From Paraburkholderia caballeronis (GTDB lineage: Bacteria > Pseudomonadota > Gammaproteobacteria > Burkholderiales > Burkholderiaceae): 64,000 bases of DNA. Positions 164 through 30,110 of the stretch are shown piece by piece. A program made the position numbers and the translations under genes. Where the stretch lies: assembly GCF_900104845.1 (NCBI RefSeq), contig NZ_FNSR01000001.1:186001-250000 (forward strand), in the 5' to 3' direction. Within the stretch, counting starts at the first letter, position 1; each line of letters opens with the position of its first letter. Under the pieces are notes generated by a model that worked only from the letters and a program-made list of their open reading frames with translations, was not told the origin of the DNA and did no database searches.

Positions 164-571
164 GGGCGAGACGATGCGCCGTGCCCGCTTCGGTCGCGTT
201 CAACGGGCGGCTGCTCCGCCCGTCGGCATCCGCCTGATCGCGCCGGCGCCGCTGCGCCATCGCGGCATACCGGCCCGGCGGCAACGTTCGCCGCGATAGT
301 CGGGTCGTGCCGCCGCCGACCGGGGCTCGGCACGCGTGCTGGAACGCGGCGCGTCGAGTCGTTCTCCGGCACGTCGAAGAGGGGAACCGCGCACCGGTAG
401 CCCTGAACGGCGCCGCCTCGCCACAGCATGTCTCGATGCGAAGCTTCAGGATCGCAAGGCTTGTTCACCCTCAAGGCCGGAACGACAGCGGACAGCGTGG
501 CCGGCATGTTCAAACCGGTATCATCGTCGCTATCCGCCGACCGCCATTGCTTCATTGCCTGCGTCCGTTCC
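164..571. other. Intergenic stretch without a supported gene
   Basis: About 400 bp between the chemoreceptor stop and the SWIM gene. Open frames here are shadows or an in-frame upstream extension of the SWIM gene with no protein-like composition. The only structure seen is an 8-bp GC hairpin at 203-223. Nothing else is recognised. Confidence 0.5.
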
Positions 572-2344
572 ATGTCCGAATCAGCAAAGCTTGCGAAGCT
601 GCTCACCCTCGCCGAAGTTCAGTCGCGCGCCGACCCGAAGACATTCGCGCGCGGCAAAGCCTATTTCCATGATGGCGCCGTGTCTCGTCTGGAAGAACAT
701 CACGGGGCCATTCGCGCCACCGTACGCGGCACGCACCGTTACCGGGTCGAACTCGCCGCCGGGGACGGCGAACTCGCTTACGACTGCAGTTGCCCGGTCG
801 GCGACGACGGCATTTTCTGCAAGCACGCGGTCGCCGTTGCGCTGTCCTGGCTGGAAAATTCCGGCGAGGAGGTGTTCCACGCCGACGAGCCCGATCGCGA
901 CAAACCGCGGAAGAAGCGGAAGACCAACGCGGAAACAATCCGCGAATACGTGGCGACGCTGGACAAGAATGCGCTTGAGGGTTTGTTGCTGGACGCGGTC
1001 GAGCGGGACCGGGCCCTGCGTGACAGGCTGCTGTTCGCCGCGCGCGCGGCCGGCGCATCCGACCTGTCCGGCATGAAAGCCGCCGTCAGGCAGGCCACGC
1101 GGATTGCCCGGCCGCTGGACTGGCGGGAGGCGGACGCATACGGCGACGGCCTGATGTCGCTGGCCGACATGTTGCGCCAACGGCTGGCCGGACCGACCGC
1201 GGCACAGGTCGTCGAGTTGTCGGAGCTGGCGATTGCCGGCGCGGAAAAGAGCCTTGAGCAGATCGACGACTCCAGTGGCAACGTGATGCCCGCCATCGTC
1301 GAGCTGGCATCGGTCCACCTCGATGCGTGCAGGCTGACCAGGCCAGACCCCGTGAAGCTTGCGGAGCGGCTCTTCCGGCTACAGACAGAAAGCGTGTGGG
1401 ACACGTTCTACGACGTGTTGCCGGCGTACGTGGAGCCGCTCGGCGAGGGCGGATTACGCCGCTATCGCCAGTTGGTCCTCGAAGCCTGGGAGGCGCTTCC
1501 TGCGCTTGCGCCGGACAAACCGCTTCGCCGCTCATATGACTCCCGGCGCATGAGACTTGAGCACGCCATGGAAGCCCTCGCGGAACAGGATGGCGATATT
1601 GACGCGCTTATCCGCATTCACGCGAAAGACCTGTCGAGTGCATCCCGCTTCCTGGAGTTGGCTGAGCTTTGCGTGCGGCACGGCCGCCCTGACGAGGGCC
1701 TCGCGTGGGCGGAGCGCGGCCTGCATGAGTCGGGCGAAAAGTTCGACCCGCGCCTGCTCGGCTTCTGCATCGATGGCTATCTGCATCGACGCGAGTTCGA
1801 TCGGGCCGATGCGTTTGCGTGGCGACGTTTCGAAGCTCACCCTGCGGCGAATGCGTTTGCCGCATTGATGAACGTTGCGACAGCCACGGGTCGATATGAC
1901 GAAACCCGCGAGCGCGCACTGCAGCACCTTTGGTCGCTGGTCAGGGAGGACGAGTCATCCGGTAAAGCGAAGCGAAACGTCTGGCGCGCCCATGCGCGGA
2001 CCGAACTGGTCAGGATTTTTCTCGCCGAAAACGAGAACGACGCCGCGTGGGATGCTTTCACAGGTGGCCCGGTTGCACGACATCTAGGGGCAGACATGGC
2101 TGCCGTGCGCGGCAGGACGCATCCACGTGATGCAATCGCGCTCTATCACCGGATGCTGCCTGTCGCGGTGGAAAACGGCGCGCGCAACGCACGTTATGAC
2201 GAAGCATTTGATGTTGTACGTGCCATCGGCGGGTTGCGGGTGCAACTCGGTGAACACGCGGAATTCACCGAAGAGCTGGACGTGATTCGCTCGACATATC
2301 GCGCGAAGCGCAACTTTATCAAGCTGCTCGCCACATTTATCTGA
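572..2344 (+). CDS. SWIM zinc-finger protein (DUF6880-like)
   Basis: A 590-residue protein. Near the N-terminus is a SWIM zinc finger, C72-x-C74-x8-C83-x-H85 (DCSCPVGDDGIFCKHAVAV), a module that binds zinc and mediates DNA or protein contacts. The rest is a helical repeat-rich region resembling the long helical tails (DUF6880 type) that follow SWIM fingers in bacteria; that family name is from memory. An upstream in-frame ATG at 428 exists, but the sequence before codon 572 is not protein-like, and MSESAKLAKLLTLAEVQ at 572 begins the usual SWIM-protein N-terminus. It is convergent with the leftward tubulin/caspase operon, so it is probably an independent unit. Function unknown. Confidence 0.8.
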   Translation: MSESAKLAKLLTLAEVQSRADPKTFARGKAYFHDGAVSRLEEHHGAIRATVRGTHRYRVELAAGDGELAYDCSCPVGDDGIFCKHAVAVALSWLENSGEEVFHADEPDRDKPRKKRKTNAETIREYVATLDKNALEGLLLDAVERDRALRDRLLFAARAAGASDLSGMKAAVRQATRIARPLDWREADAYGDGLMSLADMLRQRLAGPTAAQVVELSELAIAGAEKSLEQIDDSSGNVMPAIVELASVHLDACRLTRPDPVKLAERLFRLQTESVWDTFYDVLPAYVEPLGEGGLRRYRQLVLEAWEALPALAPDKPLRRSYDSRRMRLEHAMEALAEQDGDIDALIRIHAKDLSSASRFLELAELCVRHGRPDEGLAWAERGLHESGEKFDPRLLGFCIDGYLHRREFDRADAFAWRRFEAHPAANAFAALMNVATATGRYDETRERALQHLWSLVREDESSGKAKRNVWRAHARTELVRIFLAENENDAAWDAFTGGPVARHLGADMAAVRGRTHPRDAIALYHRMLPVAVENGARNARYDEAFDVVRAIGGLRVQLGEHAEFTEELDVIRSTYRAKRNFIKLLATFI

Positions 2345-2468: not shown

Positions 2469-2684
2469 TCAGGTCCATTGGGTGATTTTGTTGCCGTTGC
2501 GATCCTTGAATGCGCCACACACCAGCATGATCAGATCGATCAGCGTCCAGATGCCGAGGCCGCCCAGCGTCAGCAGCATCAGAACGCCCGTACCGATCTT
2601 GCCGGCATAAAATCGATGCAATCCAAGGCTGCCCAAAAACAGGCAAAGCAAAAACGCTGGCAATAAGCGCTTGTCCGTATTCAT
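2469..2684 (-). CDS. TM2-domain membrane protein
   Basis: A 71-residue protein of the TM2 family. The sequence shows two hydrophobic helices (about residues 7-22 and 32-57) separated by the diagnostic turn GLHRFYAGKIGTG, with a charged C-terminus (CGAFKDRNGNKITQWT). TM2 proteins are small inner-membrane proteins of mostly unknown role. I chose MNTDKR as start rather than the in-frame ATG 57 bp upstream because the preceding residues are charged and not conserved-looking. It is the last gene of the leftward operon that includes the tubulin-like and caspase-like genes, 68 bp after the lipoprotein gene; membership in the same transcript is inferred from strand and spacing. Confidence 0.8.
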   Translation of the reverse strand: MNTDKRLLPAFLLCLFLGSLGLHRFYAGKIGTGVLMLLTLGGLGIWTLIDLIMLVCGAFKDRNGNKITQWT

Positions 2685-2752
2685 CTCGTCGTCTATTTCG
2701 TTTCGTTCGGGTTGAATTCGCCGATCCGCCAAGCTCGCCATTACGCAAGCGA

Positions 2753-3418
2753 CTATCGGTATCGGGCCACGAGCGCCTGATAACGCACGTCCGGGCGTAG
2801 CGCGTCGAAATTCCGGTCGGCATCCAGACGGTCGAACTGGCGGAAGCCTTCCCTGAAGGCATCGTTCAGGTGGGCAAGCGCTGCATCCCCGTCGGCGTCG
2901 TGTGCCGCACGCTCGGCCAGCACATAAGCCGCTTCGAAACCCGCCTGTGCCGCAGGTTGCGGTTGCGGTTGCGGTTGCGGTTGCGGTTGCGGTTGCGGTT
3001 GCGGTTGCGGTTGCGGTTGCGGTTGCGGTTGCGGTTGCGGTTGCGCAGTCAGCGTAGCCGGCGCGGGGGCCGGAGCATCATCCTTGACCCGCCGGTAGTA
3101 GATCTTGTCGAGAAACGGCACCTTGAAATACATCCGGTCCGGCCCGTCGAAATAGAACGACAAACCAACGCCATACGGCAGGTCGACAATCACTTCGTCA
3201 CCCTTGGTTTCGATCGACTTAACCGGAATGGCCAGATGCGTATCGGGATTCTCGATCCCGTCCGCCCTGATCTCGACGTCAGGACCGATCGGCAAGCTCG
3301 CGCTGAACAACTGCAAGCGCTCCGCGTGCCAGTGGCCGATGATCGAGGGGGGCGCTTTCTTCGCGCACCCCGCCGCCAGCAACAACGCCGCCAGTGCGGC
3401 CAGGACCCGGTATCGCAT
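2753..3418 (-). CDS. Lipoprotein with (Gln-Pro)15 linker and TPR-like C-terminus
   Basis: A 221-residue lipoprotein. Residues 1-18 are a signal peptide with lipobox LAAGC, so it should be anchored to a membrane facing the periplasm. Residues about 25-115 form a beta-rich domain (IIGHWHAERLQLFS...IYYRRV), followed by an Ala-Pro stretch and 15 Gln-Pro repeats encoded by a perfect hexanucleotide array. The C-terminal 60 residues (LNDAFREGFRQFDRL...YQALVARYR) closely match the C-terminus of the upstream gene (FEASFLNGFNYFDAM...FTALVKKYR), pointing to a shared repeat unit. Its ATG overlaps the TGA of that gene (TGATG), implying translational coupling. Function unknown; probably an envelope component of the tubulin/caspase machine. 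Confidence 0.85.
   Translation of the reverse strand: MRYRVLAALAALLLAAGCAKKAPPSIIGHWHAERLQLFSASLPIGPDVEIRADGIENPDTHLAIPVKSIETKGDEVIVDLPYGVGLSFYFDGPDRMYFKVPFLDKIYYRRVKDDAPAPAPATLTAQPQPQPQPQPQPQPQPQPQPQPQPQPQPQPAAQAGFEAAYVLAERAAHDADGDAALAHLNDAFREGFRQFDRLDADRNFDALRPDVRYQALVARYR
2955..3044. repeat. Perfect hexanucleotide array, 15 x GGTTGC
   Basis: Ninety bases of uninterrupted GGTTGC units, read on the minus strand as 15 Gln-Pro dipeptides in the lipoprotein gene. The unit length is a multiple of three, so slippage would change linker length without shifting the frame. Confidence 0.95.
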
Positions 3419-4194
3419 CAGACCGCCGGTGCGCGATATTTCTTCACGAGCGCCGTGAAGCGCGGATCGTTGCGGATGCCGTTCAGGTCCGGATCCTTGT
3501 CCATCGCGTCGAAATAGTTGAAGCCGTTCAGGAAGCTGGCCTCGAACTGCTTGAGCGCCTCATCGGTGTTCCCCTGCCGCAGACGCAGCACGCCGAGATT
3601 GTAGTAAGCGAGCGACTGCTTCGGGTCCTGGGCCAACGCGTCATTCAGCGCGTGCTCCGCCTCGTCCAGTTTGCCCTGCTTCATGTCGGCGACGGCGACC
3701 TTGATCATCTCCTTCGCGGCTGCGCCCTTGCTATCCGCCAGAGCGTCCGACGCACTGCCGCTCGCCAACTGACCCGCAGCGGCCTGGCTTTGCCGGGCAA
3801 TCTCGGCGTCGTCGGGTGCCAGCCCGGTCGCCGGAGCAGTCGCCGGCGCCGACGCGGCCGCCACCACCACGGGGGCCGAAGCCGAAACCGGCGCCGGAGC
3901 GGATTCGGACGCGACAGGCGGCACGACGGTCGCAGACCGATGCGCATGCAGATAGAAATAAGCGCCGCCGCCCACGACGATCACCACCGCCGCCGCGATC
4001 GCGGCAATGACGGGCGTACCGATGCCCTTCCCGCCGTCATCCCCCGGATTTTTCTTCGTACCGGGCCGAGCCACCGCTTCCAGCGTGGTTCCGCAAGTCG
4101 GGCAGCGCAGTTCTTCGCCCGGCGTGCGTTCGAATATCTCGCCCTTGTTCGCGCGCTCGCAATCGCCTAGCGCCGGGCACTTGTAATTTGCCAT
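3418..4194 (-). CDS. Zinc-ribbon, single-TM, TPR protein
   Basis: A 258-residue protein in three parts. Residues 6-34 form a zinc ribbon with C6, C12 and C31-x2-C34. A single transmembrane helix follows (about 61-83, VIAAIAAAVVIVVGGGAYF). Then come an Ala/Pro/Ser-rich stretch and tetratricopeptide-like repeats from about 150 to the end (LDEAEHALNDALAQDPKQS, LAYYNLGVLRLRQGNTDEAL). The likely topology is cytoplasmic ribbon and periplasmic TPR, suiting a connector between the cytoplasmic tubulin-like protein and exported partners; this is inference. The gene starts 67 bp after the tubulin-like gene, and its stop overlaps the next start by one base. Confidence 0.85.
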   Translation of the reverse strand: MANYKCPALGDCERANKGEIFERTPGEELRCPTCGTTLEAVARPGTKKNPGDDGGKGIGTPVIAAIAAAVVIVVGGGAYFYLHAHRSATVVPPVASESAPAPVSASAPVVVAAASAPATAPATGLAPDDAEIARQSQAAAGQLASGSASDALADSKGAAAKEMIKVAVADMKQGKLDEAEHALNDALAQDPKQSLAYYNLGVLRLRQGNTDEALKQFEASFLNGFNYFDAMDKDPDLNGIRNDPRFTALVKKYRAPAV

Positions 4195-4261
4195 AGTGGT
4201 CCTTGTTCTCGTAACAGCAGCAGCCCCGGCGGACCAACCGCCAGGGCATCTGGCGGCGTCC

Positions 4262-7258
4262 TCAATCCTTCAAACCGATGATGTCGCGCACCAGCGGTTT
4301 CATCTCCACCAACGACCGGTACGCGGGATCGTCGTCCGATCCCGCCTCTTCGTAGATGGTCCGGGCGAACGCGTTGAACTTGTCGAGCAATGCGTTTTTG
4401 TCATCGCGGTGCCTGTAATCCGCTTCGATGCGGCGCGACACTTCCCGCTCGATCAGTTGCTGGGCCTCTTCGGGCTGCTCGCCTTCGAATACGGTCGGCC
4501 AGTCCCGGCCCTCCAGCACCTTCGACGTCGGCAAACCATCGGCTTCGTACATCAGCACCCACTCCGTCTCGCCGCTGGTGCGGTTCTGACGCGACTTCAC
4601 CATCTCCAGCAGACGCGCTACCAGCCGGTAAGGCCGGCGCTTCTGCTGTGCCTGGACCTGCGCGCCGGTCAGCGCGTAGAGCGGGGGCAAGCGCTTGCCG
4701 TTGCCTTCGCCATGCAGCAAATACGACTCGTTGTGGTCGCCGAGCAAACCGTCGTAGTGCTTCTTGAGCATGGCGAGCGACTCGACATAGCGCGCCGGCA
4801 TCAACGAGGCAATCTTCATGATGACGATTTCGTTTTCGAGCCGCCCGGTCTGCACCACCGTGTCCGACGCCGGGTCCTTCTGCTGGGCGAAAGCACTCGC
4901 CAGTTGCTCCCGGAACTCTTTCCGGCTCTCGCATTCCGGCAGGAACACGCAGACCGTCGTCACCCGGCCCGTACGGCCGCCCATCTTGTCCGACTCCAGG
5001 CCCCGGTCGACTTCCGACTTGTTGTATTGAAGCATCGTGCCCGACTTCCGGTAGAGCCCGAGCACGAAATCCTTCAAACCACTCTCGTTTGCGCCGTATT
5101 GCGCCTGCAGGCGCTCAACGATATTGACGTCGAGCACGCGCTGCTCTTTCGCCATTTCGTTGTGCACCCCCTGGACGATCTCGTCCGACTTCCGCGAAAG
5201 CGTAACGATGATGTCGGCGAGCGACAGGCCGCGGCTCAACGGTTCGAACGAATCGACCCCGGTGCCGACCTTGTCGATCAGAGCCTGGCGCACCTGCTGC
5301 GTGCGCACGATCTGCCCCGGCTCGTCGACCAGCATGGTCTTCATGACCTTCTTGATCGCGTCCAGGTCGAAGATGCGCTGCTGGTAGACCGAATCGGCAT
5401 TGCCGAGACGCGCTGCCTGCTCCTGATGCACCTTCTCGGTGGCGGCGGCCAGGTTTTGCTGAAGCCGATCGATGGTGCCGCGCAGCGATCCCAGTTCCTC
5501 CTTGACGAACGGAATCAGGCTGCCCGCGAAACGTTCGCCTTCCAGCCGCGTGCGCAGCACGAAAAGCTCGCGATATTTCTTGCCGATCTCGTCGAACAGA
5601 CTGCTGCGCTTGTCGGTCAGATGCTTGCCGAAGAAACCCACCTTGTTGAACTGGGCGGTGATCTCCGCGATCTCCTGCAAGATTGCCTGCTCGATGGCCG
5701 GCCCCTTCGTCAACTCGGCCTCGAACACCTTGTGCCGTTCGTCGAGCACGCTGGTCAGCGCATCGACCAGTTGGCGCAGCTGGATCAACGAGTGCGTGCC
5801 GGTCTTCCACTGACTGAACAGCTCCTTGTCGACCTGACGGCTGATGTGCCGCGCCATCTCTGGACGCGCCTTGCCCTTGATCTCGTAGAACTTGCGCACC
5901 CCGCCCATGGTCCGATAGGTCTCGTCGAACACCTTGGTCAGACGCTCGATCAGGCGGTTGGTCCAGTCGGCCTGCTCGATCGTCTGGTCGCTCTTGATCT
6001 GCGGCGACTGGCTGCTCACCACCGATTCCCAGTATTCCTGGGCTGGCTTCCACATGGCGTTGTTCGCGTCGTCGTCCAGGATACCCTTCTCAAGCATCAG
6101 GTGCGCGTCGCTGAGCAGCAGGCGCTGCACCACTTCGGGCTTGCGCACCTCCGACCCCCAGTCTTTCTGCACGGGTTCGTCGGCATACCCCTCGCCCTGG
6201 CGATAGTTGTTGTACATCAACTGCCGGGTCGCCTGCTCGGCGAACCCATAGGCCAGATACTCCTTGATTTCCTGCTCGGGCACCACGATGCGCTCGATGC
6301 CGAGCGAAAGGAACAGCTTGGCGCGCGCCTTGATGCTCCCTTCCATCTCGAAGTTCTTGATGTCGTTCTCGCCCTTCTCGGCGCGCCCCAGGCCATCCCA
6401 CTGCTTGTTGAGGATCTTCTGGTAGATGAATTCGGCGACGATGCGCGGAATCTCGTTGTCACCGTCGAACTGGATACCGTTCTCGTTGACGTTGCCGATG
6501 AGATAACAGCCGTTGAAATAGACGTCGTGCTTCATCCGCGAACCATCGAGCACGTTCACCGGATGGTACTGGCCGACCGCCATTGCATTGAGTTCCGACA
6601 GCGCCGCATACGCATTCGCGTAATACGGCGCAAAGCCGGCAGCGGTGTGGACATGCTTGAAATCGCGTTCGGGCAGCAACGCATAGACCAGGATCCGGCA
6701 CTCTTCGGACTTTTCGTACTTGTTGCGGATCTGCGCGATCGCGTCGACCACGGAGCCGCTGCCGGTCCCGCCGGCCAGACCGCAGACGATGTGCACGACC
6801 ACGCCGCCGCCTTGCTGGTCCCTTCCGAGTTCGCGCACGCGGTCTTCGATCGCTTTCACGAAATGCCCGGCGTTCTGCGCGAACACCACCCGCCCCAGCT
6901 TGCGGCGCTGCGCGGCGCCCGCCGTGCTCGGCGTGACGAAGTCGAAGATCGACTTCGGCTCGATCCAGTCGCGCAGCCCCGGGAACGAGGTCGGATCGTC
7001 AAGCACCGGGCGCACGCTGCCGGCCTGGTTGACGATGTACTGGCTACGGTCCAGCGCCACGTCCTTGCCGAGCACTTTCCATTCGTCGTGCCTGTCGAGT
7101 TCGTCAGTGGACGTATCGACGTACAGATATTCGAAGCGCGCGGACGGGCGGCCGCTGCTCTGCGCATGATTGCGTTCGATGGTCTTGCGAAGGTGACGAA
7201 TGATTTTGCCGCCGGAGCCGCCGAGGCCGACGATCAGGTGATTTTGCGGATCTGCCAT
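4262..7258 (-). CDS. Tubulin-like protein (Tubulin_2 family)
   Basis: A 998-residue protein with a tubulin/FtsZ-like nucleotide-binding N-terminal third. It begins MADPQNHLIVGLGGSGGKII, where GLGGSGGK (11-18) corresponds to the first glycine loop, and carries the tubulin signature GGTGSGS (163-169) within HIVCGLAGGTGSGSVVDA. These match the bacterial 'tubulin-like' family (Pfam Tubulin_2), which is distinct from FtsZ, TubZ and BtubAB and much longer. The remaining 700 residues are mainly helical with coiled-coil character (about 440-640) and have no known catalytic motif I can see. Cytoplasmic, since there is no signal or TM segment. It is the centre of a seven-gene leftward operon with a caspase and exported proteins. 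Whether it polymerises is unknown. Confidence 0.85.
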   Translation of the reverse strand: MADPQNHLIVGLGGSGGKIIRHLRKTIERNHAQSSGRPSARFEYLYVDTSTDELDRHDEWKVLGKDVALDRSQYIVNQAGSVRPVLDDPTSFPGLRDWIEPKSIFDFVTPSTAGAAQRRKLGRVVFAQNAGHFVKAIEDRVRELGRDQQGGGVVVHIVCGLAGGTGSGSVVDAIAQIRNKYEKSEECRILVYALLPERDFKHVHTAAGFAPYYANAYAALSELNAMAVGQYHPVNVLDGSRMKHDVYFNGCYLIGNVNENGIQFDGDNEIPRIVAEFIYQKILNKQWDGLGRAEKGENDIKNFEMEGSIKARAKLFLSLGIERIVVPEQEIKEYLAYGFAEQATRQLMYNNYRQGEGYADEPVQKDWGSEVRKPEVVQRLLLSDAHLMLEKGILDDDANNAMWKPAQEYWESVVSSQSPQIKSDQTIEQADWTNRLIERLTKVFDETYRTMGGVRKFYEIKGKARPEMARHISRQVDKELFSQWKTGTHSLIQLRQLVDALTSVLDERHKVFEAELTKGPAIEQAILQEIAEITAQFNKVGFFGKHLTDKRSSLFDEIGKKYRELFVLRTRLEGERFAGSLIPFVKEELGSLRGTIDRLQQNLAAATEKVHQEQAARLGNADSVYQQRIFDLDAIKKVMKTMLVDEPGQIVRTQQVRQALIDKVGTGVDSFEPLSRGLSLADIIVTLSRKSDEIVQGVHNEMAKEQRVLDVNIVERLQAQYGANESGLKDFVLGLYRKSGTMLQYNKSEVDRGLESDKMGGRTGRVTTVCVFLPECESRKEFREQLASAFAQQKDPASDTVVQTGRLENEIVIMKIASLMPARYVESLAMLKKHYDGLLGDHNESYLLHGEGNGKRLPPLYALTGAQVQAQQKRRPYRLVARLLEMVKSRQNRTSGETEWVLMYEADGLPTSKVLEGRDWPTVFEGEQPEEAQQLIEREVSRRIEADYRHRDDKNALLDKFNAFARTIYEEAGSDDDPAYRSLVEMKPLVRDIIGLKD

Positions 7259-7281
7259 GTGCTTGCCTATAACGGTTCGGA

Positions 7282-8304
7282 TTACTCGTGTGCGAGATTG
7301 ATCTTCAGATAAAGATGACCGCCTGACTTCGGCGCCTGCTTCACGACATACGAGGCCACCTGGCCGCCCGCCGCCGGCGCAGCGTCATCGCTGAACGCGA
7401 TGCCCTTCGCGGAATAGTCTTGCGTCTGCGTATTGCCGCAACCCGAAGCCGGACCCTGCTCGGGCGAAAATGCGATTCCTTTCGCTGCATAACCGGTCGA
7501 GGCATCCGCCATTTGCATCGGGGCGGGGTTCGCCTGGCTGTCCGGCATGGGCATCTGCATCGGGGCAGCGCCATTCGATGCGTCGGCCGTCTGCATCGGC
7601 GCGACGCCGCCCGACGCCGCCATGGCCGGCATGACGTCACCCGACGCGGCATCGGCCGTCGCCAGCCCCGGCGTCGTGCAGGTCGCGGCTGCCGTGTTCA
7701 TCGCGGCCGGCGTCGAAACCAGATCGGGGGCGACGTGGCGCAGGCGCTGCGTCACGTCCTGATGCTCGCGCTCGGGTGTGAGGAACACCATCAGTTTCTC
7801 CATGCCCGGCTTGTCGTCGAACACGAACGAACCCCTGGCCGGGAAAAACACCGTGCCCATTGCGTCGACAAAATTGTCCTGCGCGGGTTGCGGATAGATC
7901 TGCGTCACCGTCCCGTCCGGCGCTTCGTTGAGGATATAGACATAGGACGGCCGGTTGACCTTCACGCCCAACTGGAAATGCTCGCCACTCTTGAATACGC
8001 GCCGGGCGAGCACGTCGTGCGTCGTGCCGTCGGCATCCTTGAGGCGGATGAAATAGCTCACGCCGATCTGGGCAGGTTTCTTCTGCGCCACCTTGACGAT
8101 CTTGCCCGCGGGCTTGCCCTCGCCCGGCGCGGCGGCAACCGCGGTTGCCGAAGTTGCCGCGGTTGCGGAAGGCTGCTCCGTTCCCACCGCCACCACCGAG
8201 TTGTCCTGGCCGAAGAACAGGGACTTCGCGGTGTACTGCTGCTCCTGCGCAAACGCATGGCTCGCGAGTGCCGCTAGCGCGAGAGTGGCAAGGGGGTAAC
8301 GCAT
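7282..8304 (-). CDS. Exported DUF4384-type protein with YxAKGIxFS motifs
   Basis: A 340-residue protein with a signal peptide (cleavage near AFA-QE, residue 19/20). Residues about 80-180 (FIRLKDADGTTHDVLARRVF, VNRPSYVYILNEAPDGTV, LMVFLTPERE) look like the DUF4384 beta domain, which is often fused to or encoded beside caspase-like peptidases. The segment 181-270 is low-complexity Ala/Met/Pro. The motif YTAKSLFFG occurs just after the signal peptide (24-32). Related copies YAAKGIAFS and YSAKGIAFS occur at 272 and 297, and a third-party copy sits in the neighbouring caspase. The gene lies 23 bp upstream of the tubulin-like gene and 62 bp after the caspase. Precise role unknown. Confidence 0.8.
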   Translation of the reverse strand: MRYPLATLALAALASHAFAQEQQYTAKSLFFGQDNSVVAVGTEQPSATAATSATAVAAAPGEGKPAGKIVKVAQKKPAQIGVSYFIRLKDADGTTHDVLARRVFKSGEHFQLGVKVNRPSYVYILNEAPDGTVTQIYPQPAQDNFVDAMGTVFFPARGSFVFDDKPGMEKLMVFLTPEREHQDVTQRLRHVAPDLVSTPAAMNTAAATCTTPGLATADAASGDVMPAMAASGGVAPMQTADASNGAAPMQMPMPDSQANPAPMQMADASTGYAAKGIAFSPEQGPASGCGNTQTQDYSAKGIAFSDDAAPAAGGQVASYVVKQAPKSGGHLYLKINLAHE

Positions 8305-8366
8305 GTCGATTCTCCAGATAGGCAGAGTATTTTTTCGGTTGGAAGCGATCGCTCCCGGAAGCGGAC

Positions 8367-9707
8367 CTATTGAAACAGATCGTTTTGCTGAGCCGGGATC
8401 GTCGAGAACTGGCGCGGCACCTGGTGTGCATTGCCATGCGACACCTCGACCGCCGTACTGGAAGTAAAGCGCTGCGCGTCGCGGAAAGCCGGGTCGAGCT
8501 GACCGTTGTCGTGCGCCAGATAGTCGAACAGCGACTGCGTGAAATACGAGCCCCTCAGCGTGCGGCCCGGATCGAGCGGGCTGGCGAAATGGCCGGACTT
8601 CGGCCCGAGCGACTCCTCGTTCGTGCTCGTCGCGGTGATGATCTGGTAGCCGCTGCGGTTGCGGTCGACGGCCGTGTGCGCGGCCGCCCCACCAACCTGG
8701 CCGCCGCTGGCGCCGGCACCGGCGCCGTCGTCAGAGAAACGGATGCCCTTTGCGGTATAGGCCGGACCGGTCCACGAAGCCAGCGAAATACCCTCCCGCT
8801 CGCTGCGGCCGCCATTGGTTTGCAGGATATAGGTCGTGCTGTCGTCGCTGATGTCGTCGAGCATGTCGCCGCTATAGCAGGTGTCGATCACGACACGCGT
8901 CATCGCACTCGGCTTGCGCGCGAGATCCTGCACCAGCGTGTCGGGCACGGCATGGTTCTGGAAATGCAGCAGGATTTCGGTGCGGTCGTTCGACTTGACC
9001 GTATTCTGGTCGCCCGAGTCGTAGGCCATGATCGACATCTTGCGCTGGTCCTGGCCGGCCGGCGTCGGCACCGGGACATTGCCGTGGCTCGAAATGTAGA
9101 TGAATACCTGGTCGTTCGGACCGATCTCGCCGCCGAGCCTCGCGATGGCCGCCTCGATGTTGGCCTTCGTCGCGCGTTCGTTCAGCAGCGCCGTCACCGT
9201 ATAGCCCGCCTGCTTCAGGTACGCCTGCACGACCACAGCATCGTCGGCCCCCTGGATGTCGGGCAAGTGGTAAGGGTCGGCGAAATGATTGATGCCGACC
9301 ACCAGCGCACGCTTCACCGGCATGGCCGACGCGTGGCGAGCGCCATGCGCATAGGCGTCGAGCGCCTGGCCCGCTGCGCGCTCCCAGCGCTTTTGCAGAA
9401 TATGCGTGGGATAGAACGGCGACGTCGATTTGATCCCGACGATCGACTGCACGATCGTGAATGCCTGGTCGACTTCGTCCTCGTTGCGGTAAGTGCCGGT
9501 CAACTGAATCCGGCCCGTGCTGTCGCGGGCGACGCTCGCCTGGTCCAGCCCGTGCGCCTGAAACTTCGCCTTGATCCGCTCGACCAGCGGCTGCGGCACG
9601 TCATAAGCCCGATACGCATTCTGGAAACCGGGCAGGTCGCTGGCTGCGCAGGCCGAAAGCAGCAGAGCGCATGCAACGATCGAAATACGCGCAAAAAACG
9701 TTTTCAT
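8367..9707 (-). CDS. BON-caspase lipoprotein (family C14-like peptidase)
   Basis: A 446-residue lipoprotein. The signal peptide ends in lipobox LSAC (Cys20). Residues about 38-100 resemble a BON domain (LVERIKAKFQAHGL...IQLTGTYRNEDE). From 132 a caspase fold follows: KRALVVGINHF, GADDAVVVQAYLKQAGY, VFIYISSHG with the probable catalytic His208, and RVVIDTCYSGD with the probable nucleophile Cys277. The dyad is intact, so it should be a cysteine peptidase, unusually placed in the periplasm or on the outer membrane. A motif YTAKGIRFS (317-325) matches repeats in the DUF4384 neighbour. Two neighbours are exported, so its substrate may be one of them; this is inference. Confidence 0.88.
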   Translation of the reverse strand: MKTFFARISIVACALLLSACAASDLPGFQNAYRAYDVPQPLVERIKAKFQAHGLDQASVARDSTGRIQLTGTYRNEDEVDQAFTIVQSIVGIKSTSPFYPTHILQKRWERAAGQALDAYAHGARHASAMPVKRALVVGINHFADPYHLPDIQGADDAVVVQAYLKQAGYTVTALLNERATKANIEAAIARLGGEIGPNDQVFIYISSHGNVPVPTPAGQDQRKMSIMAYDSGDQNTVKSNDRTEILLHFQNHAVPDTLVQDLARKPSAMTRVVIDTCYSGDMLDDISDDSTTYILQTNGGRSEREGISLASWTGPAYTAKGIRFSDDGAGAGASGGQVGGAAAHTAVDRNRSGYQIITATSTNEESLGPKSGHFASPLDPGRTLRGSYFTQSLFDYLAHDNGQLDPAFRDAQRFTSSTAVEVSHGNAHQVPRQFSTIPAQQNDLFQ

Positions 9708-9824
9708 TTGAATTCAGCACGGCAATCGTGATTGCGCGCTTGCCGCGCAGACCACCGCACGTCCCCGAAGAAAAACAGAACATCCGCCATCCGGCCAGGC
9801 CTCGCGGCCGGACGGCGTCCATTG

Positions 9825-10571
9825 TTATTGCGTTACGGCAAATTGCTGGGTCATATCGACGGGCGGCTTATCGCCGGCCGCCACGCTGAATCGCATGCTA
9901 TAGAGACTGCCGGGCTTCGCGTCATGCGGAATGGGAATACGCACGGTATCCTGCTGCTCGCCGGGTTCGAACGTATGCTGCTCGGACGTAGCATGGCCCG
10001 GGAAAGGCACTTCGGTCTGCTCGCCCTTGTCATCCACGACGAACAGCTTGCGCTCGATCGTCACGGGAATTTCCGCACCATCGGGTGTCATCACGATGAA
10101 CGCGCTGTCGACCTCGGCAAAATCGCCGGCCTTGACCGGTTGAGCCACCTTGACGGATTCGACTCGCAGCAACACACCCTGCTTCGGTTTGTAGTGCGTT
10201 TCCCGCTTGACCTTGTTGTAATCCTTGGTGCGCTGGAGATTGGACTCGGGAATCCAGGACGGGTTTTCCTTGTAACAGCTATCGATCGCGGTGTAATAGG
10301 CGGTAGCGAAGCCTGCAATCCCGCCGACCACGGCGCCGATCGCCGCGCCGGTCACGGCATCCTTCTTGTTGTTACCGCCGAACAGCCCACCCGCCACACC
10401 GGCCAACGCCCCGACGACGGAGCCCTTGACGGTGGTGATGACCTGCTTCTGCCTGACACAGCTATCCAGATCACTGTTCGCCGACTCCTGCGCGAACAGC
10501 GCTGTCGATGAAAACAGCAACCCCATTGCCGTGACCACGCTGGCCACTTTTGCTTTTTTATTGCTCGCCAT
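9825..10571 (-). CDS. Exported glycine-zipper protein, first gene of tubulin/caspase operon
   Basis: A 248-residue protein. Residues 1-27 are a signal peptide (cleavage near LFAQ-ES). Residues about 49-92 are a glycine-zipper hairpin (GSVVGALAGVAGGLFGG, GAAIGAVVGGIAGFATA), a feature of proteins that insert in or associate with membranes. The C-terminal half is beta-rich with an immunoglobulin-like pattern (VLLRVESVKVAQPVKAG...TFEPGEQQDTVRIPIP). I recognise no named family beyond the zipper. It begins the leftward operon, 117 bp before the caspase gene, and an inverted repeat lies 62 bp upstream of its start. It may form a membrane-inserted part of the system. Confidence 0.75.
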   Translation of the reverse strand: MASNKKAKVASVVTAMGLLFSSTALFAQESANSDLDSCVRQKQVITTVKGSVVGALAGVAGGLFGGNNKKDAVTGAAIGAVVGGIAGFATAYYTAIDSCYKENPSWIPESNLQRTKDYNKVKRETHYKPKQGVLLRVESVKVAQPVKAGDFAEVDSAFIVMTPDGAEIPVTIERKLFVVDDKGEQTEVPFPGHATSEQHTFEPGEQQDTVRIPIPHDAKPGSLYSMRFSVAAGDKPPVDMTQQFAVTQ

Positions 10572-11472: not shown

Positions 11473-15175
<3,703 letters not shown>

Positions 15176-30048: not shown

Positions 30049-30110
30049 GAAAAAAAGCCCGCTTCAGTGAGCGGGCTTAATCCATATCAGGAGGAGACAT
30101 GGAGGAGACA
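30049..30110 (-). ncRNA. Putative anti-Shine-Dalgarno small RNA
   Basis: On the minus strand a compact transcription unit of about 62 nt is visible. From a predicted start near 30110 it has two tandem copies of TGTCTCCTCC, then a short spacer, then a perfect 9-bp terminator stem (AAGCCCGCT / AGCGGGCTT, 30055-30078) with a T run at 30050-30056. The CCUCC repeats are complementary to ribosome-binding sites, the layout of small RNAs that block translation of many mRNAs. From memory, an sRNA of this design (NcS27) is described in Burkholderia cenocepacia; homology was not tested. Confidence 0.65.

Follow-up and report, generated by a model that had tools for sequence, protein, structure and literature searches.

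The FtsZ-like-1 (Tubulin_2) proteins were described in 2010 by Makarova and Koonin (PMC2875224), who proposed that they act in membrane remodelling. Their genes lie in a membrane or envelope context, with partners listed in that paper as vWA, kinase, GTPase and OmpA; the vWA gene is found in a majority of FtsZ-like-1 operons and is typical rather than defining. The reviewer comments printed with the paper include the objection that an FtsZ-like protein of the cytoplasm could not be in one complex with partners in the periplasm. Caspases are not mentioned in its main text, and no tested function for FtsZ-like-1 is reported in the literature searched, including PMC2875224 and PMC9871819. The other family of concern here is peptidase family C14. 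According to PMC5756287, C14 relatives other than the animal caspases cleave after Arg or Lys; animal caspases are cut between their p20 and p10 parts, and type I metacaspases never are.

In the 64,000-nucleotide stretch of DNA analysed here (the window), a first-pass annotation made from sequence alone had described a run of seven leftward genes that brings these two families together. The seven open reading frames were confirmed at their coordinates, with the domains named and His208/Cys277 intact (Table 1). From the TM2 gene to the glycine-zipper gene the spacing is 11 bases, a one-base overlap at 3418, then 67, 23, 62 and 117 bases, which bears out the short gaps and single overlap that had been described. 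The exported protein called DUF4384-like is a true DUF4384 match. For the BON-caspase lipoprotein the caspase assignment stands and the BON region is weak (0.0017; 19.0 bits, cut-off 27); the glycine-zipper reading frame is likewise real, with a Pfam score below the cut-off. The TM2 gene is present and is not part of the core, as it was found at 4 of 19 related loci among the best 80 of 271. A terminator-like hairpin (9785-9817) lies in the 117-base gap between the glycine-zipper and caspase genes and may be a chance occurrence, the scan having returned 12 terminator-like sites against 8.2 in shuffled sequence.

Table 1. Genes and motif copies of the tubulin-caspase locus (positions within the window)
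Feature	Position	Strand	Basis or remark
TM2 protein	2469..2741	-	Pfam TM2 3.6e-19
Lipoprotein	2753..3418	-	Lipobox by eye; small domain and Pro-Gln repeat
Zn-ribbon/TM/TPR protein	3418..4194	-	Pfam TPR 3.9e-10; proposed inner-membrane adaptor
Tubulin-like protein, FtsZ-like-1 (Tubulin_2) family, 998 aa	4262..7258	-	Pfam Tubulin_2 1e-57
Exported DUF4384 protein, 340 aa	7282..8304	-	Pfam DUF4384 7e-16, 58.5 bits against cut-off 27
DUF4384 motif copy 3, YSAKGIAFSDD	7384..7416	-	Sequence pattern
DUF4384 motif copy 2, YAAKGIAFSPE	7459..7491	-	Sequence pattern
DUF4384 motif copy 1, YTAKSLFFGQD	8203..8235	-	Directly after signal peptide (read by eye)
BON-like and caspase (C14) lipoprotein, His208/Cys277	8367..9707	-	Pfam Peptidase_C14 3e-14; AlphaFold caspase fold
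Caspase motif YTAKGIRFSDD, residues 317-327	8727..8759	-	Low-confidence p20-p10 loop
Exported glycine-zipper protein, 248 aa	9825..10571	-	Pfam Gly-zipper 1.2e-5, 25.4 bits against cut-off 28.9

By sequence, the tubulin-like protein belongs to the FtsZ-like-1 family. It has the tubulin fold of the FtsZ-tubulin superfamily and carries the glycine-rich T4 loop, GGTGSG, at residue 163; the tubulin profile matched no PDB sequence at E 0.01. As in the systems of PMC2875224, the middle of the protein is long and helical and the C-terminus is helical: in the model, residues 349-760 are mostly helical, and residues 863-998 are mainly helical with three strands. The middle segment would be an insert of ~410 residues separating two tubulin-fold domains, and this insert, together with the C-terminal extension, sets the protein apart from the CetZ, tubulin and FtsZ members of the superfamily. 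The model thus suggests why the second tubulin domain escaped recognition in 2010. The gene content also differs from that listed in PMC2875224, in that the clade of the window has a caspase, a DUF4384 protein and lipoproteins; Pfam found no vWA domain among the seven proteins.

In order to see how the genes are distributed, tubulin loci were collected by an alignment scan of genome contigs and the best 80 of 271 were kept; a single-protein scan of the contigs found no relatives. Among these best 80, the 19 loci closest to the window have DUF4384 in 19 cases and the caspase in 18, and neither was detected at the remaining 61. A glycine-zipper homolog is present at 16 of the 19; of the other three, L032 and L035 start inside the operon, and at L042 the position is taken by a different reading frame, unmatched in the search. 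Within a 299-genome family sample, the caspase adjoins this tubulin in all six genomes that have it, a count to be taken as a lower bound because the Pfam C14 search of the window's own genome missed the window's caspase. In a quick tree that gave long-branch warnings, and from which L043 was left out because its tubulin is split into two reading frames, the caspase clade has a support of 93, short of the 95 mark. The gene set is therefore co-inherited and not a chance assembly. Tubulin_2, caspase and DUF4384 genes stay together in this clade, which removes the lack of co-occurrence that the first-pass annotation had named as counting against its proposal.

The commonest partner of the tubulin is the Zn-ribbon membrane protein, found at 71 of the best 80 loci, and this gene pair occurs in several phyla. 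In the window it has a ribbon formed by C6, C12, C31 and C34, one transmembrane span at 54-84 and then the TPR domain. Its outer part varies by lineage, and in the caspase clade consists of the TPR together with the lipoprotein caspase, DUF4384 protein, glycine-zipper protein and small lipoprotein. The predicted topology is a cytoplasmic tubulin, a Zn-ribbon protein with one membrane span, a lipoprotein caspase and an exported DUF4384 protein, with signal sequences judged by eye and the span and lipobox read from the sequence. A partner of this kind would provide a concrete bridge between cytoplasm and periplasm, against the objection raised by the reviewer in 2010.

The caspase has the catalytic His and Cys within a p20 domain that characterize family C14, and both H208 and C277 are invariant in 26 aligned caspases, the window's included. 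Among the matches listed, SSHG is found in 119 of 120 caspase homologs and DTC[YFH]SG in all 120. The AlphaFold model has a caspase fold, nearest to GSU0716 (3bij), MALT1 and metacaspase-4, with the p20-p10 loop at pLDDT < 50. Bacterial orthocaspases and metacaspases share the p20 domain, the His/Cys dyad and the DTC(Y/F/H)SG site; the window's protein differs from them in being a predicted lipoprotein with a BON-like N-terminal region and a motif-bearing loop, and in being co-inherited with a tubulin-like protein. By analogy with its relatives, it would be expected to cleave after Lys or Arg.

The new element, as read from the sequences, is a motif common to the caspase and the DUF4384 protein, [YF]xxK[GSA][IL]xF, that occurs once in the p20-p10 loop of the former and three times in the latter. 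When the KGI form is searched for as a DNA pattern, the 7.1-Mb genome has three matches, all within these two genes; seven genomes with the operon or remnants of it gave 16 matches, every one inside a caspase or DUF4384 gene. Among the proteins listed, the strict pattern is present in 108 of 120 caspases (shuffled mean 1.1) and in 119 of 120 DUF4384 proteins, with 339 copies (shuffled 1.3), and in none of 120 tubulins (shuffled 2.5), although the homologs are kin and such controls overstate their independence. The frequencies of the Lys, the aromatic residue, the G/S/A and the I/L in these proteins prove nothing, being fixed by the search pattern; F at Lys+4 is not fixed by it and is found in 92-100% of DUF4384 copies and 74% of caspases, and D at Lys+7 in 82-100% of caspases and DUF4384 copies 2 and 3. 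The 26-row caspase alignment shows no variation at Lys320 or Ile322. This dedicated motif bears on the idea that the genes form an ordinary envelope-maintenance set, in which the tubulin-like protein would have an organising role at the inner membrane and the caspase would provide slow, steady processing of envelope proteins, with no switch or tag. Tubulins in other clades do pair with PBP/OmpA envelope domains (four proteins; OmpA partners are also noted in PMC2875224), in keeping with the membrane remodelling proposed there, but a motif in two proteins whose KGI form appears nowhere else in those seven genomes is left unexplained, and we regard this alternative as improbable.

In diverged operons the motif changes in both proteins together. 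At L046 and L047, SKDLFVE replaces it in caspase and DUF4384 protein alike, an exact shared word reached by 0 of 100 shuffles; at L042 the joint change is less exact, with a longest common word of three residues that fails the exact-word test. The more distant L118 has a similar tag on the C-terminal tails of both proteins, found with a pattern that was widened after the sequences had been read. Overall, 5 of 17 loci (L030, L037, L039, L046 and L047) have a motif word reached by at most 6 of 100 shuffles, and at the other 12 the longest caspase-DUF4384 common word is of a length that chance also gives, owing to the degeneracy of the motif. The joint change thus rests on few independent contrasts. 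Within the main clade, where 29 of 30 caspase/DUF4384 pairs were readable and one was skipped, the residue after the Lys does not co-vary (24 G/no A, 3 A/no A, 1 G/A and 1 D/no A), the pairs having been matched by eye on contigs of equal length, a proxy, so that some may be wrong.

Given the Arg/Lys specificity of C14 relatives outside the animal caspases (PMC5756287), the motif could instead be the caspase's own cleavage site, with cuts by the enzyme in its own p20-p10 loop and, following the invariant Lys, in the DUF4384 protein, the fragments serving as the signal. Lys320 is indeed invariant, and the caspase copy sits within the loop that is the cutting site in animal caspases. However, conservation extends past the Lys to positions left free by the pattern (F at +4, D at +7), DUF4384 copy 1 is so near the mature N-terminus that a cut there would remove little, and in type I metacaspases the stretch from p20 to p10 stays uncut (PMC5756287). 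We lowered cleavage alone to a somewhat unlikely rival because the aromatic and small residues are changed in L042, L046 and L047, these diverged operons having no aromatic residue and an Asp after the Lys, and because in L118 the motif is on C-terminal tails, at the extreme end of the caspase and outside the loop. We read the motif as a docking tag common to the two proteins, which would bring them together in a single complex of the envelope and might in addition be a site of cleavage. A tag on both proteins suggests one coordinated machine and offers a directly testable handle on function.

Our preferred reading, to which we give a probability of about 45%, is that in this caspase-carrying form of the FtsZ-like-1 systems a membrane adaptor and a docking-tag complex control the protease. 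The cytoplasmic tubulin-like assembly would be tied to the inner membrane through the Zn-ribbon adaptor, whose TPR domain would extend into the periplasm. The tag would dock on one receptor, for which the TPR domain, the domain of the small lipoprotein, that of the DUF4384 protein and the caspase are candidates, and the caspase with its one tag and the DUF4384 protein with its three would compete for or share one complex. The caspase tag sits in the loop at which animal caspases are cut to become active. Under envelope stress, or if the cytoplasmic assembly changed, the complex could shift and free that loop, and the freed protease might then act on envelope proteins, presumably after Lys or Arg. 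The envelope-spanning device suggested in the first-pass annotation is to this extent upheld, in that the predicted topology fits and the genes are co-inherited. In a bolder form that we consider unlikely, the tubulin-family assembly would control the periplasmic caspase, the multicopy tag of a DUF4384 scaffold would compete with the tag in the caspase activation loop, and tag and receptor would co-evolve operon by operon; if true, this would be a cytoskeleton-to-envelope proteolytic switch.

A role in conflict had also been raised, and an anti-phage or programmed-death system, in which the caspase would bring about cell death once an infection upsets the tubulin-like assembly or the envelope, would fit the patchy spread of the operon (at least 6 of 299 family genomes). 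The Agitococcus operon comes after BREX PglZ and BrxL and, as judged by eye, before a resolvase-like gene, a distant Tubulin_2 gene of Meiothermus lies within a BrxL cluster, and the neighbour at 428-2344 in the window matches PDC-S62 (7e-55). Nevertheless, the operon proteins themselves matched no described anti-phage system in PADLOC 2.0.0 beyond a generic caspase model (8e-12). We scanned 110 of 118 selected flanking reading frames at 16 of the 19 loci, leaving out L032, L035 and L042; at 1e-10 four matched mad3 (best 5.5e-33), one BrxL (in Agitococcus), one RTasPolA and one DrmC, and most matched nothing, in a set that includes false reading frames from overlapping calls in GC-rich flanks. 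These raw PADLOC counts give no clear sign of a defence island among the 110, the case for a conflict role is weak, and we consider it improbable.

Fusions of caspase and DUF4384 in a single protein occur in Azospirillum TSA2s and in G555 (L118), each adjoining a Tubulin_2 gene, whereas the two proteins of the window are separate and linked by the common motif. In the small lipoprotein of the window a weak TPR-end match scores 23.7 bits, below the cut-off of 32, and in L118 the small domain of this lipoprotein sits on a Zn-ribbon/TM protein.

All seven minus-strand ORFs that the first-pass annotation had proposed as an operon are present at the claimed place in the 7.1-Mb genome (three contigs), and the GC content of the region is about that of its neighbours. 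The domains assigned to them stood (TM2, lipoprotein, TM/TPR, Tubulin_2, DUF4384, caspase and glycine zipper), with only a weak Pfam match for the BON part of the caspase protein. Likewise, the zinc ribbon of the TM/TPR protein is read from four cysteines, with weak Pfam matches only. His208 and Cys277 of the caspase can both be read from the window protein.

Features of the operon and its surroundings in the window
Feature	Coordinates	Strand	Remark
SWIM zinc-finger protein	428-2344	+	neighbour facing operon; matches PADLOC defence candidate PDC-S62 at 7e-55
Seven-gene operon	2469-10571	-
Lipoprotein gene	2753-3418		long Pro-Gln repeat inside
Terminator-like hairpin	9785-9817	-	13 pairs, 10 GC; between glycine-zipper and caspase genes; possible attenuator
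gyrB (presumably, from translation)	11473-14010		adjoins operon
Betaproteobacteria_toxic_sRNA	30049-30110	-	Rfam, 77 bits

The proposed association of tubulin and caspase genes holds in the family sample of 299 genomes. Counting the window's own, tubulin relatives occur in six genomes and caspase relatives in seven, and the caspase lies beside the tubulin in all six tubulin genomes, cut in G331 by a contig end. The seventh caspase genome, G281, carries a decayed copy of the operon (L021), in which the glycine-zipper gene is represented by two ORFs, the caspase is shortened and the lipoprotein is still present; DUF4384, tubulin and TPR genes were looked for there and none was found. The distribution is patchy, with presence in 1 of 250 genomes of the order sample, that one being the window's own, and Tubulin_2 in 6 of 398 genomes of the phylum sample, again with the window's own counted. 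Four of these six (all except the window's genome and G555) gave no caspase match near the tubulin and no DUF4384 match by family searches, which miss some true cases. The open-access library searched, with subscription papers and preprints outside its scope, yielded no paper on tubulin, caspase and DUF4384 together, nor on an FtsZ-like, caspase and TPR operon in Burkholderia.

Co-occurrence was also borne out among wider loci, scanned with 30 aligned tubulins as query (best 80 of 271). The 19 loci closest to the window (L030-L048), some from the same strains as the family sample, come from Paraburkholderia, Burkholderia, Caballeronia, Zoogloea, Azonexus, Janthinobacterium, Duganella, Massilia, Comamonas, Rhodoferax, Agitococcus and bins, one labelled Chitinophaga. 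DUF4384 and TPR genes are present in 19/19, the caspase in 18/19 (the exception, L035, starts inside DUF4384), the glycine zipper in 16/19, a separate lipoprotein gene in 15/19 and TM2 in 4/19. In Caballeronia arvi (L043) the tubulin gene is split over two ORFs. Neither caspase nor DUF4384 was found in the other 61 loci by profiles built from the window's clade, which could miss more distant members. On an 82-row tree, 19 rows with caspase loci, the window's among them, group together (support 93), and the distant Azospirillum TSA2s is a further caspase locus outside this group. There the Tubulin_2 gene is accompanied by OmpA genes, two caspase-DUF4384 fusions and a separate DUF4384 gene, whose 25.8 bits fall just short of the 27-bit cut-off. 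At L118, the locus of G555, the tubulin shares 32% identity with that of the window. After it come a Zn-ribbon/TPR protein (E 1e-45), another Zn-ribbon protein, in which the small domain of the lipoprotein from the window recurs (E 1.7e-18), and a caspase-DUF4384 fusion; a further DUF4384 gene is found upstream. A 1033-residue protein adjoining the fusion (L118 5117-8218, minus strand) has a C-terminal end that looks CHAT (caspase-like) by eye only.

In 71/80 loci (best 80 of 271), a pattern identifies a Zn-ribbon ORF no more than 1 kb downstream of the tubulin, two of the nine others being contig ends; a first version of the pattern gave 79 matches among all 4848 ORFs, tubulin-adjacent ones included. 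Four long Zn-ribbon proteins (L049, L057, L063 and L069) contain PBP_like_2 and OmpA domains, and two short ones (L079 and L102) gave no Pfam match. Because the Zn-ribbon ORF is so regularly present and the outer domains differ, the tubulin and the Zn-ribbon/TM adaptor constitute the stable pair, and the outer part is exchanged. Such an adaptor would, we infer, answer the objection on compartments for FtsZ-like proteins printed in PMC2875224.

One motif, [YF]xxK[GSA][IL]xF with acidic residues after it, occurs both in the loop of the caspase and in the DUF4384 protein. Searched as the strict pattern [YF]x[AS]K[GSA][IL], it matched 108/120 caspases (best 120 of 267) vs 1.1 in shuffles, and 339 copies in 119/120 DUF4384 proteins (best 120 of 201) vs 1.3; tubulins gave 0/120 vs 2.5, and a check of 17 further proteins of the operons did not find the motif. 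With a looser pattern for the linker, 113/120 caspases (best 120 of 267) matched; on reading, five of the seven missed show a variant and two (P0083 and P0113) none. Back-translation of the KGI form, a pattern that leaves out motif copy 1, gave three matches in the window's genome, two of them in DUF4384 and the third in the caspase (reversed control, 0). Across 26 further genomes, 13 of 16 matches fall in six genomes that retain the operon or parts of it, and each of the 13 lies within a caspase or DUF4384 gene; the other 20 genomes account for three (reversed control, 3 over all 26).

Joint change of the motif in diverged loci provides few independent contrasts. In L046 and L047, SKDLFVE occurs in both proteins; the caspase has it in that same loop and the DUF4384 protein in its tail, and this 7-residue word was reached by 0/100 shuffles in either locus. 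The L042 caspase has AKDIFAVED and its DUF4384 protein SKDLFAEED, with no exact word longer than three common to both. With a pattern widened after the L118 sequences were read (background 0.18 per 1000 residues, true cases included), only two of seven proteins match, each in its tail: the caspase-DUF4384 fusion (FASKDLVAVDE) and the DUF4384 protein (FAGKDLVFEED). The earlier, narrower pattern missed the DUF4384 tail and matched that of the caspase as well as another ORF at this locus. No such motif was seen on reading the L112 caspase, which has a similar layout; L112 holds a glycine-zipper, caspase and OmpA set with no tubulin or DUF4384 nearby.

Location within the envelope is predicted from the lipobox of the caspase, the one membrane span of the TPR protein and signal-peptide-like starts of operon proteins, read by eye. 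Alanine after the lipobox cysteine favours the outer membrane, and it is found in 109/120 caspase homologs (best 120 of 267).

BREX PglZ and BrxL genes lie directly upstream of the operon in Agitococcus lubricus (L041), with a resolvase-like gene, by eye, downstream; by term search, the main text of a BREX survey (PMC12839542) mentions neither tubulin nor caspase. On a Meiothermus plasmid (L026), the Tubulin_2 gene adjoins a vWA gene, with BrxL one hypothetical gene away. In the flanks of the 19 closest loci, four ORFs match PADLOC mad3 (best 5.5e-33) and one matches DrmC.
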